A stretch of DNA of 40,032 nucleotides from Kiritimatiellota bacterium (GTDB taxonomy: Bacteria; Verrucomicrobiota; Lentisphaeria; Oligosphaerales; JAADHN01). Location of the stretch: assembly GCA_013151865.1 (NCBI GenBank), contig JAADHN010000085.1:1-40032 (forward strand). Reading direction: 5' to 3'. Below the pieces are notes generated by a model. The model did no database searches. It was given only the letters and a program-made list of their open reading frames with translations, and had not been told where the DNA came from. Of this stretch, positions 1-4,764 are shown one piece after another. The position numbers were made by a program, and so were the translations under genes. The stretch's first letter is position 1. Every line of letters starts with the position of its first letter.

Positions 1-418
1 CATCGCAGGCCTCGCAGATCTCGCACAGCGCCTGGCAGATCTCGCAGGTGGTCAGACATCCTTCCTGACAGGCGCCTTCGCACGTCGTCTGGCAAGCCAC
101 TTGACAGGTCTCGCAAACGTCGCACGCCTCGCAGGCCCCCTCGCACGCTTCACAAGCCCCCTCGCACGCTTCACAGGCCGCTTGGCAGGCGGCATCGCAG
201 GCCTCGCAGATCTCGCACAGCGCCTGGCAGATTTCGCAAGTGGTCAGACACCCCTCCTGACAGGCGCCTTCGCACGTCGTCTGGCAGGTCACCTCACAAG
301 CGGCCTCGCAGACCACTTGACAGCCCGCCTCACACTCGTCGGGGCAGTTGCCGACGACCTCTCTCGTCACCGAGTTGTCCACTGCATCGTAGGCTTCTCT
401 GTTCGGCGCCGCAGTCAT
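1..418 (-). CDS. Cys-repeat RiPP precursor candidate, 3' end cut by window edge
   Basis: I read 139 codons from an ATG at 418 to the window edge with no stop. Residues 1-24 form a Cys-free, mildly acidic leader-like segment. From residue 25 onward a Cys occurs every third or fourth residue (CxxxC and CxxC), giving 32 Cys by residue 138. The spacers are mostly Glu, Gln, Ala, Gly, Thr and Ile, for example CQTTCEGACQEGC. Residues 45-75 and 109-139 are identical, so the gene carries an internal duplication with a period of 64 residues. A GGGAGGA ribosome-binding site lies about 7 bases before the ATG. The gene follows the radical SAM/SPASM gene by 83 bp on the same strand. Known family behaviour: Cys-rich peptides beside SPASM enzymes are often thioether-crosslinked ranthipeptides. 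That this one is modified is inference. A metal-binding scaffold is the main alternative. Confidence 0.8.
   Translation of the reverse strand, partial: MTAAPNREAYDAVDNSVTREVVGNCPDECEAGCQVVCEAACEVTCQTTCEGACQEGCLTTCEICQALCEICEACDAACQAACEACEGACEACEGACEACDVCETCQVACQTTCEGACQEGCLTTCEICQALCEICEACD
2..286 (-). repeat. In-frame 192-bp-period duplication inside the Cys-repeat gene
   Basis: The stretches 194-286 and 2-94 encode the same 31 residues and differ only at a few synonymous bases. The period of 192 bp equals 64 codons. Shorter units (a seven-residue CEACEGA-type module) are reiterated between the two copies. The frame and Cys spacing are kept throughout, which points to selection on the protein rather than a neutral satellite. 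Confidence 0.85.
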
Positions 419-501
419 GTTGTTTCCTCCCCTTCTCGCCCATCCGAACTCGGGCGGCTTTCGGTCTCCCGGCGAACCGTCGGTCGGGTCCGCACTCCGG
501 G

Positions 502-1647
502 TCAACGGCGCCCCACCGGCTCGCACGTCGGCGACGACCGCCGTTTCTGCCTGTATTGCGACCCCTGCAACAATTTCGGCAACAGGGGATTGTTTTCCTT
601 CTTGAGTTGTTCATAAAGCCATGAGGCGGCACGAAACTGCGAACGAATGATGGCGCATTGGGCCGGCCAAGGCGTGTAAATATCTCCAGCACAGAGGACA
701 TTGACTGCCGGACACCCGCCCGCACAAAACATCCGCACCGGGCATTCGTCGCACCCCCGCAGATGCCGGGACTCGTAGGAGATAAACTTGCGTCGCATGT
801 CGGGGTCCGTCACTTCCTGGAGCGTGCCGAACCGACACGAATCCGCAGCCGAAAAGCGCTGGCACGGATACACACCACCGTCCACGGAAATCCCGATATA
901 GGCCGCGCACACCCCGCACGGAATGCGCATCCGCCGCTTGAAAGTGGACATTCGCCCGATGTATTTGGTCAAGAAAACCACATACCGCAAATCACCGGCT
1001 CGCATCCGTTCGAGCACCGCCGCGGCAATGCGCTGGAATTGTTCGCCGGCAGCCGCCAAACTCTCTTCGGTCCAATCGGCCTCGAGTGCCGCAATGGGCG
1101 CGGTGTATCGGAACCCCCGTTCCCAGAGATACTCGTGATCTGCGTGCAAGGAATGAACCGTCTGCGGGTCGTAAGTCATGCGGGCCCCCTGACGGGGGTT
1201 CCGCGCCAGGATCTTGTCGATTACGGCGTCCAATGCCTGGAACGACCCCGCTCCGTTCACCGTTTTGCGATTGAAATCCTGAGTCGCGGGCATTCCATCC
1301 ACGCTCAGGTTGATGGATACCTTGTGATCAAACAGGAAATCCAATGCCTCATCGGTCAACAAGGTGCCGTTGGTGGTGACTCCAAGCCGCAATTCTTTCC
1401 CGACTTCCTCGGCACGCCGGCGCCCGTACAATGTCAATGCCTTGAGTGTTTCGAACTCGAGAAGCGGCTCTCCGCCGAAAAAGTAAATGGCGACCTGTTT
1501 CTCCTTCGGCGGGGCCGCCAGCATGAATTCAACCACTTGGCGACCGGTTTCCATGGAAAGCCGCCGCGGCTGTTTTTTCAGAAAGCAGTAGCGACACCGG
1601 AGGTTGCAGGCCTCGGTCAAATACAGCGATACAACGGAAATAGCCAC
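502..1647 (-). CDS. Radical SAM/SPASM peptide maturase
   Basis: This 381-residue protein has the radical SAM cluster motif CNLRCRYC (C14, C18, C21), the GGEP SAM-binding motif at residues 58-61, and a C-terminal SPASM-type region. The SPASM Cys include C244, C247, C262, C299, C302, C308, C312 and C331, with the typical CDECPVRMFCAGGCP block for auxiliary iron-sulfur clusters. Such enzymes cleave SAM to a 5'-deoxyadenosyl radical and crosslink or otherwise modify ribosomal peptides. The start is a GTG at 1647 preceded by an AGGGAG site; no in-frame ATG fits better. The Cys-repeat peptide gene follows directly, the usual arrangement of maturase and precursor. A sulfatase-maturing enzyme (anSME) is a less likely alternative, raised only because a Cys-type sulfatase lies 3 kb upstream. 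The C-terminal tail is Arg-rich and not conserved-looking. Confidence 0.88.
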   Translation of the reverse strand: MAISVVSLYLTEACNLRCRYCFLKKQPRRLSMETGRQVVEFMLAAPPKEKQVAIYFFGGEPLLEFETLKALTLYGRRRAEEVGKELRLGVTTNGTLLTDEALDFLFDHKVSINLSVDGMPATQDFNRKTVNGAGSFQALDAVIDKILARNPRQGARMTYDPQTVHSLHADHEYLWERGFRYTAPIAALEADWTEESLAAAGEQFQRIAAAVLERMRAGDLRYVVFLTKYIGRMSTFKRRMRIPCGVCAAYIGISVDGGVYPCQRFSAADSCRFGTLQEVTDPDMRRKFISYESRHLRGCDECPVRMFCAGGCPAVNVLCAGDIYTPWPAQCAIIRSQFRAASWLYEQLKKENNPLLPKLLQGSQYRQKRRSSPTCEPVGRR

Positions 1648-1956: not shown

Positions 1957-4764
1957 CTACGGGGCCCGGACGCCCCCACCGCCCGCTGCCCTTGCCCCGT
2001 CCTCGCCGGCAGGGCCCGCGACGAGATCGAGCCCCAACGGCAGTGAGTCCCCGGCGAACTCGGCCCGGTACTGCCGCGTATCGTCGCAGACTTCGGCAAG
2101 CTGTTTCAGCCATTCGCCCGGAGCGTTTTCCGCAGTGAGGATCTGCACGGCACGCTCCCGAGCCTCTGCGGAGAGGTCCAGGTCGCGGACTCTGCACACT
2201 CGACACACGGCCGCCAAGGCGAATAAAGCCTGGCGAGCAGGACGACGCCGAACCTGCTCGAACAGTTTCGGCAGGAGCGAGATCAAGTCTGGCGCCCGCA
2301 CGACGGCGTCCAAAGGACCGTACATGGGACGGCGCGCTCCCAGCCGCGCCAAGGCCCACCAGTGACACTCCTTCAGGATGCCGGCATTGGCGGTCAACCT
2401 CCGGAGGACCCGGAGCTTCTGCCGCGACGGAATACGTTCGAGCGCACCGAGACAGCGCCACATTTCCCGTCCGGCGTATGCCAGCGACTTGGGCGGCCCG
2501 AGCCCGCCGCCGGAACTCTTGGGCAACAGGTCGCGACACAGCCGGCCGGCAATCTGTTGCTGTTGGCCGGCCCGCAGCCCGCCGGAGGCGCGGCGCCACA
2601 AGACCCACCACTCGGTCGTGACCCGAGCGGACCGGGGGTGCAGGGGCCCCGCGGGCCAGATCCGCCACAGCCGGCGAATCCGCCAGTCGTCTCCCGGAAA
2701 GCCGTAACCCGGGCGCACGAAATACCCGGCCAAATTCAGCCACCGCGCTTCATGCTCGGGCGACTGCGTGCGCAGTTCCGCCCGGTCGAGCATCCAGTCC
2801 GCCAGCCGCCGCAGCAAGGCGGCCCCCCACTCGCTGCGCGGCGCACCTACGACCTCTTCCAAATCTCGCATGACCCCCCGCAGCCGGTGGCGGTCGTCGA
2901 AAGCGGCTCCGAGAAGCCGACCGGCCTTGTCCAGGATCGCTTCCGGCACTGTTGCCCCGTGGTCTGCTCCGCTGCCGCTCGTTCCCGCGGCTCGCAGGTC
3001 GAAAGAGAGCGGAAACCGGTGTCGACCGTCAAGCGTGGTACACCACAGGTCGAGGGTCCCGATTTCCGTCAGGACCGCGTTCATTTGAACATCCATCACC
3101 TGACACCGGTCACGGCGACCATGGACGAGCACGGTCTGGACAGGGGGCAGCGGCGTCAATTCGTCTCGGTCCCGGATGACCTGGCCGGGCTGGTCGCCCA
3201 AACGGGTCGAGCTGGCGTGAAGGGCAAAGCGCACCGGGCGATTGGTCGTGACGCGAAAACGTCGGGCGGCGAGGTGCACTACCTGTCCTTCCTCGGCGTC
3301 CCGGGGCAATACACAGACCAGTTCCACATCCCGGCCGCGCCGCGCCGCGATGTAATACGACCGCGCCGCGCCGCCCCGCACCCGAACCCCGGCGCCCCGG
3401 CGGACCAAACCATAATAGGCCGCTCCCCCGGCAACGGCCGTTCGCAGGCTGGAGGCGGCCAGTTCCGGCAACGGCCCGTCCAACGCCAGCCATTGCCCCA
3501 ACACGGAGCGCAAGCGCTCCCGGAAAAGTGCCGGCAAGAGGGCGCCGCCGTTGAAAAGGACATGCGTGAGCGAAGGCAGACCCGCCGCGCGCAAAAACGC
3601 GAGCAAATGTCTTGTGATAGCCGGATCGGAGGCGTACGGCAGCCCCATTTGGCGAATCCCCGCGCCCCGGGCTGGTGGGGACGCGTCCGGACCAACGGGG
3701 GGGAAAAAACCTTCGAGAAGCGCGCCTCGCACGTCCGACCGCAAAAACGTCCAGGTTCGTGTGGAGCCCACCACGGCGCTTCCCGGCGCGGCGACGGCGA
3801 GGAGATGCCGGTCGGGGGCGTCTTCGGCCATGAGTGTTTCCTTGGCCTGGCGACACGCCTGACACAACTGAGACCATTGCCGGGCGGGGAGCGGTTCGCC
3901 CCCCCAGCCCTGCTCCACCGCCTTTGCCAGGGCCATGTCCATATTGTCCCCGCCCAGGAGAAGATGGTCGCCCACCGCGGTGCGCCGCAACGCGCCATCC
4001 CCTGCCACGGAGACCAGGGAGAAATCCGTCGTCCCACCCCCCACGTCCACGATCAGGACCGTGGCGTCCGCGCCCAGGGACGCCCTCCAAGTCGATTCAT
4101 GGCCGCGGAGCCAATCGTAGAACGCGGCGAGCGGCTCTTCCAGAAGCACAGGGGTCCGAATCCCCGCCTCGGCCGCCGCTTCGAGCGTAAGACGACGGGC
4201 GGCCTCGTCGAACGAAGCCGGCACGGTGATGATCACCTGCTGCTCGGCAAGGCGACATGGCGTCCCCTCCGCATCGAGTTCCTGCCCGAAACGCGCGTCC
4301 CAGGCGCAACGCAGGTGCTCGAGATAGAAAGCCGTCACAGCCACGGGAGATACCGCCCTCTCGCCCAGGTCGCCGCCCCAGGGCAAGATCCCCCGAGTCC
4401 GGTCCACGCCGCCATGCGCCAGCCACGATTTCGCCGAGGCAATCAGGCGACCGGGAGTCGCCGCGCCTCGGTCTCGGGCGAAAGCACCTACGGCGTAGCT
4501 TTTCTCGCGGTCCCATGGGAGGGTCAATGCCCCTTCCGGCAATTCATGCTCGGCCGGAAAATAACAGAACGCAGGTAGAAGGTCCCCCTCGGACGTCTCG
4601 CCGGGGCCCGTCAATTGGGGCACGGGAAAGGGACGAACCACCCGGTCGCGGGCCGTGTCCACGTAGGACACCGCAATGTTCGTCGTGCCCAGATCGATTC
4701 CAACCACAAACCGCGCTGCATAGTCCGGGGACGCCGTCCCCGATACGTCAAAGCATTCTTCCAT
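1957..4764 (-). CDS. Hsp70-family ATPase with atypical C-terminal half
   Basis: The first ~430 residues of this 935-residue protein are an Hsp70/actin-fold ATPase: phosphate-1 loop IDLGTTNIAVSY near residue 23, phosphate-2 motif IVDVGGGTTDF near 240, and an adenosine-side motif FNGGALLPALF near 400. The remaining ~500 residues do not look like the DnaK substrate-binding domain and lid. They are Arg- and Leu-rich and mostly helical in appearance, as in large bacterial Hsp70-like proteins of unknown client. No signal peptide is present, so it is probably cytosolic. An AGGAG lies about 13 bases before the ATG at 4764. No grpE or dnaJ is nearby. It is upstream of the radical SAM gene on the same strand but separated by 309 bp and a probable terminator. 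Confidence 0.85.
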   Translation of the reverse strand: MEECFDVSGTASPDYAARFVVGIDLGTTNIAVSYVDTARDRVVRPFPVPQLTGPGETSEGDLLPAFCYFPAEHELPEGALTLPWDREKSYAVGAFARDRGAATPGRLIASAKSWLAHGGVDRTRGILPWGGDLGERAVSPVAVTAFYLEHLRCAWDARFGQELDAEGTPCRLAEQQVIITVPASFDEAARRLTLEAAAEAGIRTPVLLEEPLAAFYDWLRGHESTWRASLGADATVLIVDVGGGTTDFSLVSVAGDGALRRTAVGDHLLLGGDNMDMALAKAVEQGWGGEPLPARQWSQLCQACRQAKETLMAEDAPDRHLLAVAAPGSAVVGSTRTWTFLRSDVRGALLEGFFPPVGPDASPPARGAGIRQMGLPYASDPAITRHLLAFLRAAGLPSLTHVLFNGGALLPALFRERLRSVLGQWLALDGPLPELAASSLRTAVAGGAAYYGLVRRGAGVRVRGGAARSYYIAARRGRDVELVCVLPRDAEEGQVVHLAARRFRVTTNRPVRFALHASSTRLGDQPGQVIRDRDELTPLPPVQTVLVHGRRDRCQVMDVQMNAVLTEIGTLDLWCTTLDGRHRFPLSFDLRAAGTSGSGADHGATVPEAILDKAGRLLGAAFDDRHRLRGVMRDLEEVVGAPRSEWGAALLRRLADWMLDRAELRTQSPEHEARWLNLAGYFVRPGYGFPGDDWRIRRLWRIWPAGPLHPRSARVTTEWWVLWRRASGGLRAGQQQQIAGRLCRDLLPKSSGGGLGPPKSLAYAGREMWRCLGALERIPSRQKLRVLRRLTANAGILKECHWWALARLGARRPMYGPLDAVVRAPDLISLLPKLFEQVRRRPARQALFALAAVCRVCRVRDLDLSAEARERAVQILTAENAPGEWLKQLAEVCDDTRQYRAEFAGDSLPLGLDLVAGPAGEDGARAAGGGGVRAP

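Follow-up and report, generated by a model that had tools for sequence, protein, structure and literature searches.

Thioether-forming radical SAM enzymes have so far been known to act on small peptides, into which they install one to six links, and on one enzyme subunit. In the SCIFF system (CteA/CteB), the precursor has six Cys in ~45 residues, and the RRE of the maturase CteB is located in its first ~95 residues. In the PapA/PapB (freyrasin) system, the substrate PapA is a small peptide with six Cys-X3-Asp motifs, several links are formed per peptide, and the maturase PapB carries an N-terminal RRE that binds the leader; Arg372 of PapB is its carboxylate-binding Arg. PapB joins Cys to Asp or Glu at Cys-Xn-Asp/Glu (n=0-6), seemingly needs only a thiol and a carboxylate outside the leader, and requires Arg372 for activity (PMC9413430). 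QhpD products contain Cys-Asp and Cys-Glu links, and NxxcA carries a Cys-Asn link (PMC8326336). The non-alpha thioethers of QhpD are made in a protein, with no small peptide involved.

Here we analyzed a window of 40,032 nucleotides, which is the whole of one contig (C44) of a 6.2 Mb genome in 176 contigs, and which encodes at its left edge a Cys-rich protein and a radical SAM/SPASM enzyme. The likeness to PapA/PapB lies in the top-ranking enzyme model, in a Cys-to-Asp/Glu chemistry that fits a Cys/Glu-rich substrate, and in the multiple links proposed for the protein. The substrate is Cys-rich as in SCIFF, but with 35 Cys in 153 aa it far exceeds both the SCIFF precursor and PapA, in agreement with the preliminary description, which had noted that known SCIFF/ranthipeptide precursors carry far fewer Cys. 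The CXXX-repeat target family (TIGR04115) resembles the window pair in its name, through a four-residue Cys repeat as the target.

The Cys-repeat protein

Within the window, an ORF on the minus strand runs from an ATG at position 418 to the edge (2..418) and encodes 139 residues with 32 Cys, the first 24 residues being Cys-free (MTAAPNREAYDAVDNSVTREVVGN; 347..418, minus strand). The remainder of the gene is found on contig C149 of the same genome, the end of which is identical to positions 1-91 of the window, a 91-bp overlap of k-mer type. The stop codon, which the preliminary description had placed somewhere left of position 1, lies there after 14 more residues. The sequence thus joined establishes the gene pair and a complete protein of 153 aa, in which MTAAPNREAYDAVDNSVTREVVGN is followed by CPDECEAGCQVVCEAACEVTCQTTC and the chain ends in CEACETGQ. 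The breaks of C44 and C149 both fall within the repeat, and the number of repeat copies given here may be too low.

The Cys-repeat core occupies 2..346 (minus strand) in the window and holds 32 of the 35 Cys. The CxxxC/CxxC spacing that had been described for the window extends to the full protein, where every one of the 34 gaps between successive Cys is 3 or 4, compared with 19 in the best of 20,000 shuffles; nine gaps of 4 come first, followed by a mixture of 3 and 4. Most Cys sit in C-X3-C, and Glu, Gln or Asp directly follows 32 of 35 Cys, with Gln accounting for about one third of the post-Cys residues. Nearly all Cys have an Asp or Glu within 7 residues. The protein contains 9 CX3[DE] motifs and 25 disjoint Cys-Xn-Asp/Glu pairs (n=0-6), a number that rises to 35 if Gln is included.

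The repeat also harbors a 49-residue internal duplication with an offset of 64 aa, the first copy covering residues 41-89 (152..298, minus strand) and the second beginning with residues 105-139 (2..106, minus strand) and running on into C149. The copies differ at 10 codons, of which 4 changes are silent and 6 replacing, and a single Cys is lost, at the extreme end. A ribosome-binding-site-like GGGGAGG (426..432, minus strand) lies 7 nt 5′ of the ATG. Given this motif, together with the silent changes and the retention of Cys between the duplicated copies, we took the ORF as coding. Since each contig ends within the repeat, and spurious Cys frames arising from DNA repeats were met at other loci, we considered whether the protein results from a chimeric joining of contigs or from a repeat read in a non-coding frame; the exactness of the 91-bp overlap, the ribosome-binding site, the varied Cys, Glu and Ala codons and the low repetitiveness of the DNA make such an artefact hardly credible.

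The radical SAM/SPASM enzyme

The enzyme gene (502..1647, minus strand) begins with GTG, encodes 381 aa and lies upstream of the Cys-repeat gene, with 83 bp between the two. The preliminary description had proposed a dedicated SPASM maturase at this place, and the enzyme proved to be complete, its assignment to the thioether type being well supported by its NCBIfam ranking and its resemblance to CteB; Pfam models also place it among radical SAM/SPASM proteins. The top four NCBIfam models are thioether-type or related, every score being below the model's cut-off: PapB (NF047865) scores 252.3 bits against a cut-off of 340, with a full-length alignment (3-326 to 2-330), followed by Nif11-rSAM at 203 bits, QhpD (TIGR03906) at 190 against 453 and SCIFF maturase (TIGR03974) at 177 against 425. 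The CXXX-repeat target model (TIGR04115) gives 101.9 bits against 350. The suggested search against SPASM and RiPP models gave no score above a cut-off, and because the tested thresholds failed, we did not file the pair as PapB, SCIFF or QhpD. CteB is the closest solved structure both by sequence and by fold (TM ~0.8, comparing an AlphaFold model of the enzyme with pLDDT 90).

All ten cluster cysteines are present, so that class and cluster ligands can be read directly from the translated gene. The radical SAM motif CxxxCxxC (1585..1608, minus strand) provides Cys 14, 18 and 21; in an alignment of 22 relatives, Cys 21 is invariant and Cys 14 and 18 are nearly so. The auxiliary-cluster region of the SPASM domain (655..918, minus strand) provides Cys 244, 262, 299, 302, 308, 312 and 331, which are invariant in the same relatives, as well as a YPCQRF motif with Arg 264. 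QhpD (HLCHRF) and Nif11-rSAM (YPCHRF) also have Arg at this place, whereas SCIFF enzymes have Gln (YPCHQF). In contrast to PapB, the enzyme has no RRE: it starts 2 residues ahead of the radical SAM domain, with 18 further codons open upstream, and the first ~95 residues of CteB have no counterpart in it. QhpD, which belongs to the same enzyme group, likewise begins ~90 residues earlier with an N-terminal domain, and no genes for QHNDH subunits were found among the annotated neighbors of the pair.

The nearest relative of the enzyme shares 32% identity with it. In a tree of 42 sequences it branches close to phage enzymes and to one enzyme from a Limisphaerales MAG and is excluded from the SCIFF/QhpD/Nif11 clade (support 98/98), the deep branches being weakly supported. 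Single-sequence scans of genome and viral contig collections gave no close relatives of the enzyme. A SPASM-based alignment scan of genome contigs yielded only 9 loci, all of them distant and all lacking a Cys-repeat neighbor. Among the INPHARED matches to the enzyme, SCIFF maturases from unverified gut contigs predominated; these, and the radical SAM matches in Campylobacter phages, had no Cys-repeat partners and were set aside.

Repeat-enzyme pairs in phages and in the phylum

A DNA-level scan of IMG/VR for sequences able to encode C[EQ]xx repeats gave 144 stretches, of which 38 contain a genuine in-frame, non-monotonous Cys repeat, a few possibly being false Cys frames (L101, L112); the other 106, with the DNA pattern alone, served as control. 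Matches to the enzyme-family profile, which was built in part from enzymes of these same loci, were found in 21 of the 38 repeat stretches and in 0 of 106 controls (Fisher p 3e-15, with some phage loci being near-duplicates, so that p-values overstate independence). A motif-only count that does not depend on the profile gave 18/38 vs. 0/106. When whole contigs were searched, the enzyme appeared in 8 of the remaining 17, bringing the total to 29/38, compared with 0/40 control contigs. The reverse search, with the enzyme as the only query, found a Cys-repeat ORF within 6 kb at 25 of 61 loci. At L075, L266 and L280 the enzyme gene is the immediate neighbor of the repeat gene or overlaps it.

The window pair, with its in-frame C[EQ]xx repeats and an adjacent PapB-like enzyme without RRE, follows the pattern of this group. 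All tested phage enzymes score best to PapB, below the cut-off, and Glu or Gln follows 60% of the phage repeat Cys while Ser, Thr, Gly or Ala precedes 66%, giving a grammar shared with the window: small-Cys-Glu/Gln-x. Grammar, enzyme group and adjacency are alike in the structural proteins of L119, L128, L263, L266, L280, L286 and L297. The partners in phages are mostly large structural proteins: a Hoc-like/Ig protein in a baseplate-type neighborhood at L280 and L297, a pair of tail proteins encoded in succession behind a tape-measure-like ORF at L128, and a protein of 720 aa encoded next to a capsid-like ORF at L119. There the repeat forms one domain within a large protein of the particle, in contrast to the small peptide PapA, whereas the window protein stands alone on a chromosome, with no fusion to a phage structural protein. 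The nearest to the window layout is L316, where one or two short ORFs with Cys repeats lie by baseplate-like genes. Since the phage relatives are particle proteins, the window pair probably represents a free-standing cellular form of a module carried mostly by phages.

In the phylum, we inspected matches of the bare Cys-every-fourth pattern in 388 genomes. Genuine stand-alone repeats were found in the window and in L367, L368, L369, L370 and L371, and a radical SAM gene adjoins 5 of these 6 CxxxC-repeat genes, the window included. The enzyme is PapB-like and directly adjacent in L367, L368 and L370, while the neighbor in L369 is a different radical SAM type; at L371, a locus cut by the contig end, no radical SAM gene was seen. 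Most matches of the pure DNA pattern were simple DNA repeats. Further matches that were checked were either such repeats or “CHSA” tails, which at L009, L026 and L037 terminate large membrane-like proteins, look separate and were set aside. Such CHSACHSA-ending proteins recur in the phylum, also at L372 and L374.

Taken together, the gene pair is real, beyond chance, and belongs to a wider pattern. The preliminary description had noted that its proposal would be weakened by Cys proteins occurring widely without a radical SAM neighbor, and the opposite was found, repeats co-occurring with the enzyme family in phages and in the phylum. This recurrence, which spans unrelated phages as well as the phylum, together with the frequent adjoining or overlapping of the two genes, argues against an unmodified Cys array that would bind metal, in a metallothionein- or Fe-S-like manner, or form a helical thiol scaffold while the enzyme acts elsewhere. 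A chain of 153 residues with 35 free Cys would be well suited to metal binding, and single-sequence AlphaFold predicts long helices for the protein; on balance we hold this explanation to be very improbable. The same model lends slight support to the earlier idea that, on a helix, CxxxC places successive Cys near one face, where a maturase could act processively.

Three features of the repeats and enzymes would also be compatible with a different modification, namely C-alpha (sactionine) links to the small residues adjoining each Cys, links to Thr or Ser like the Cys-Thr links of SCIFF enzymes, or a non-thioether product. A small residue (Ala, Ser, Thr or Gly) almost always precedes Cys in the window and phage repeats, some phage partners (L311, L320) have C-T instead of C-E/Q repeats, and one subgroup of the enzymes has CQEM/CQEL where others have the Arg-bearing motif. 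We nevertheless consider another chemistry fairly unlikely for the window pair, whose enzyme groups with the QhpD/PapB/SCIFF-type enzymes that make non-alpha thioethers, and in whose type of repeat nothing is as constant as the Glu or Gln that follows Cys.

Other Cys-rich or radical SAM arrangements were observed in the same collections. Tandem arrays of 3-5 different radical SAM genes occur in phage contigs L357 (4-11 kb), L353-L356 (5-9 kb) and L264/L350, the array in L357 adjoining proteins with CTCNCNYAC-type Cys repeats. The phage radical SAM enzymes of L279 and L281 carry a short Cys-rich C-terminal stretch (CSVCNTCQVCDTC in L281). In the phylum, L368 (G393:C29, 3788-9495) is a RiPP-like cluster in which two radical SAM/SPASM genes accompany two small precursors of CGG-CxxxC type, together with one ClpP/SppA-like and one ABC-transporter-like gene. 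L370 (G180:C13, 6444-9971) encodes a 601-aa protein with 117 Cys in CTAGC-type repeats beside its PapB-like radical SAM gene, and its upstream ORFs are primase-like and terminase-small-subunit-like, suggesting a possible phage element. In L369 (G402:C48, 2574-4514), a 100-aa Cys-repeat protein with a twin-arginine-like N terminus lies beside a NirJ2-like radical SAM gene.

Candidate modification and genomic setting

Based on the resemblance to ranthipeptide and QhpD-type systems, which the window system would parallel in its working, we think it probable that the two genes form a system in which the enzyme installs many Cys-to-Glu/Asp, possibly also Cys-to-Gln, thioethers along the repeat. The radical SAM/SPASM enzyme would bind the Cys-repeat protein and, using 5′-deoxyadenosyl radicals, connect the Cys sulfur to C-beta or C-gamma of a nearby Glu or Asp, perhaps Gln; we infer this bond type from family resemblance. 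Links would be made successively along the repeat, yielding a domain shaped like a rod or ladder and held by many thioether bridges, with up to 25 links if the acceptors are Asp and Glu only and up to 35 with Gln. Weighing against the thioether reading are the PapB score below cut-off, the weakly supported tree placement, and the Gln after about one third of the Cys, which is no proven acceptor for the enzyme family.

The preliminary description had interpreted the Cys-free N terminus as the leader of a RiPP. The first 24 residues are indeed Cys-free and a possible leader, and the structure and the enzyme class were as it had described them, but the classical arrangement of leader, protease and exporter, and with it the picture of a single leader, appears too narrow: no protease or transporter was noted among the annotated neighbors on C44 and C149. 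In phages the repeat sits at the N terminus (L280, L297), at the C terminus (L310) or internally (L263, L286, L305) of large structural proteins, from which we conclude that a leader is probably unneeded for modification. This variable position, together with the lack of an RRE, suggests that the enzyme recognizes the repeat itself.

From the phage setting we would guess that the product serves as a stable, hardened or displayed structural scaffold, and the recurrence of the pair points to a family of protein domains with heavy crosslinking that has apparently gone undescribed. We found no description of phage radical SAM enzymes or Cys-rich particle proteins of this kind in the openly accessible literature that we searched. 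A broader proposal, that radical SAM enzymes make leaderless poly-thioether ladders with tens of links per chain from an encoded Cys-Glu/Gln repeat, and that this covalently hardened repeat is a phage particle material of which some bacteria have a stand-alone version, is put forward tentatively, at somewhat less than an even chance. If true, radical SAM thioether chemistry would reach beyond peptide natural products into structural proteins, phages would gain a covalent means to stiffen or protect appendages, and the repeat would encode a simple, genetically programmable crosslinked material.

The pair could instead be a piece of a phage particle module that was captured recently or is decaying, without function in the cell. 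Phage enzymes (L286, L265, L263) are among the closest by E-value, and searches of 48 genomes from the order at E ≤ 1e-38 and of the 388 genomes of the phylum at E ≤ 1e-45 gave no relative. The Limisphaerales MAG enzyme (L341) is, however, equally close, neither gene is disrupted and each has a good ribosome-binding site, the repeat copies differ by silent changes, and no phage genes were noted among the annotated neighbors on C44 and C149, all of which makes a captured fragment distinctly unlikely. The neighbors in the window (Hsp70-like, sulfatase, histidine kinase) give the setting the look of an ordinary chromosome. The Hsp70-like gene, upstream of the pair (1957-4764), encodes an unusual Hsp70/actin-like protein of 935 aa, and on C149 a gene convergent to the pair (L004, 9848-12631) encodes a fusion of a protein kinase with a formylglycine-generating-enzyme-like domain.
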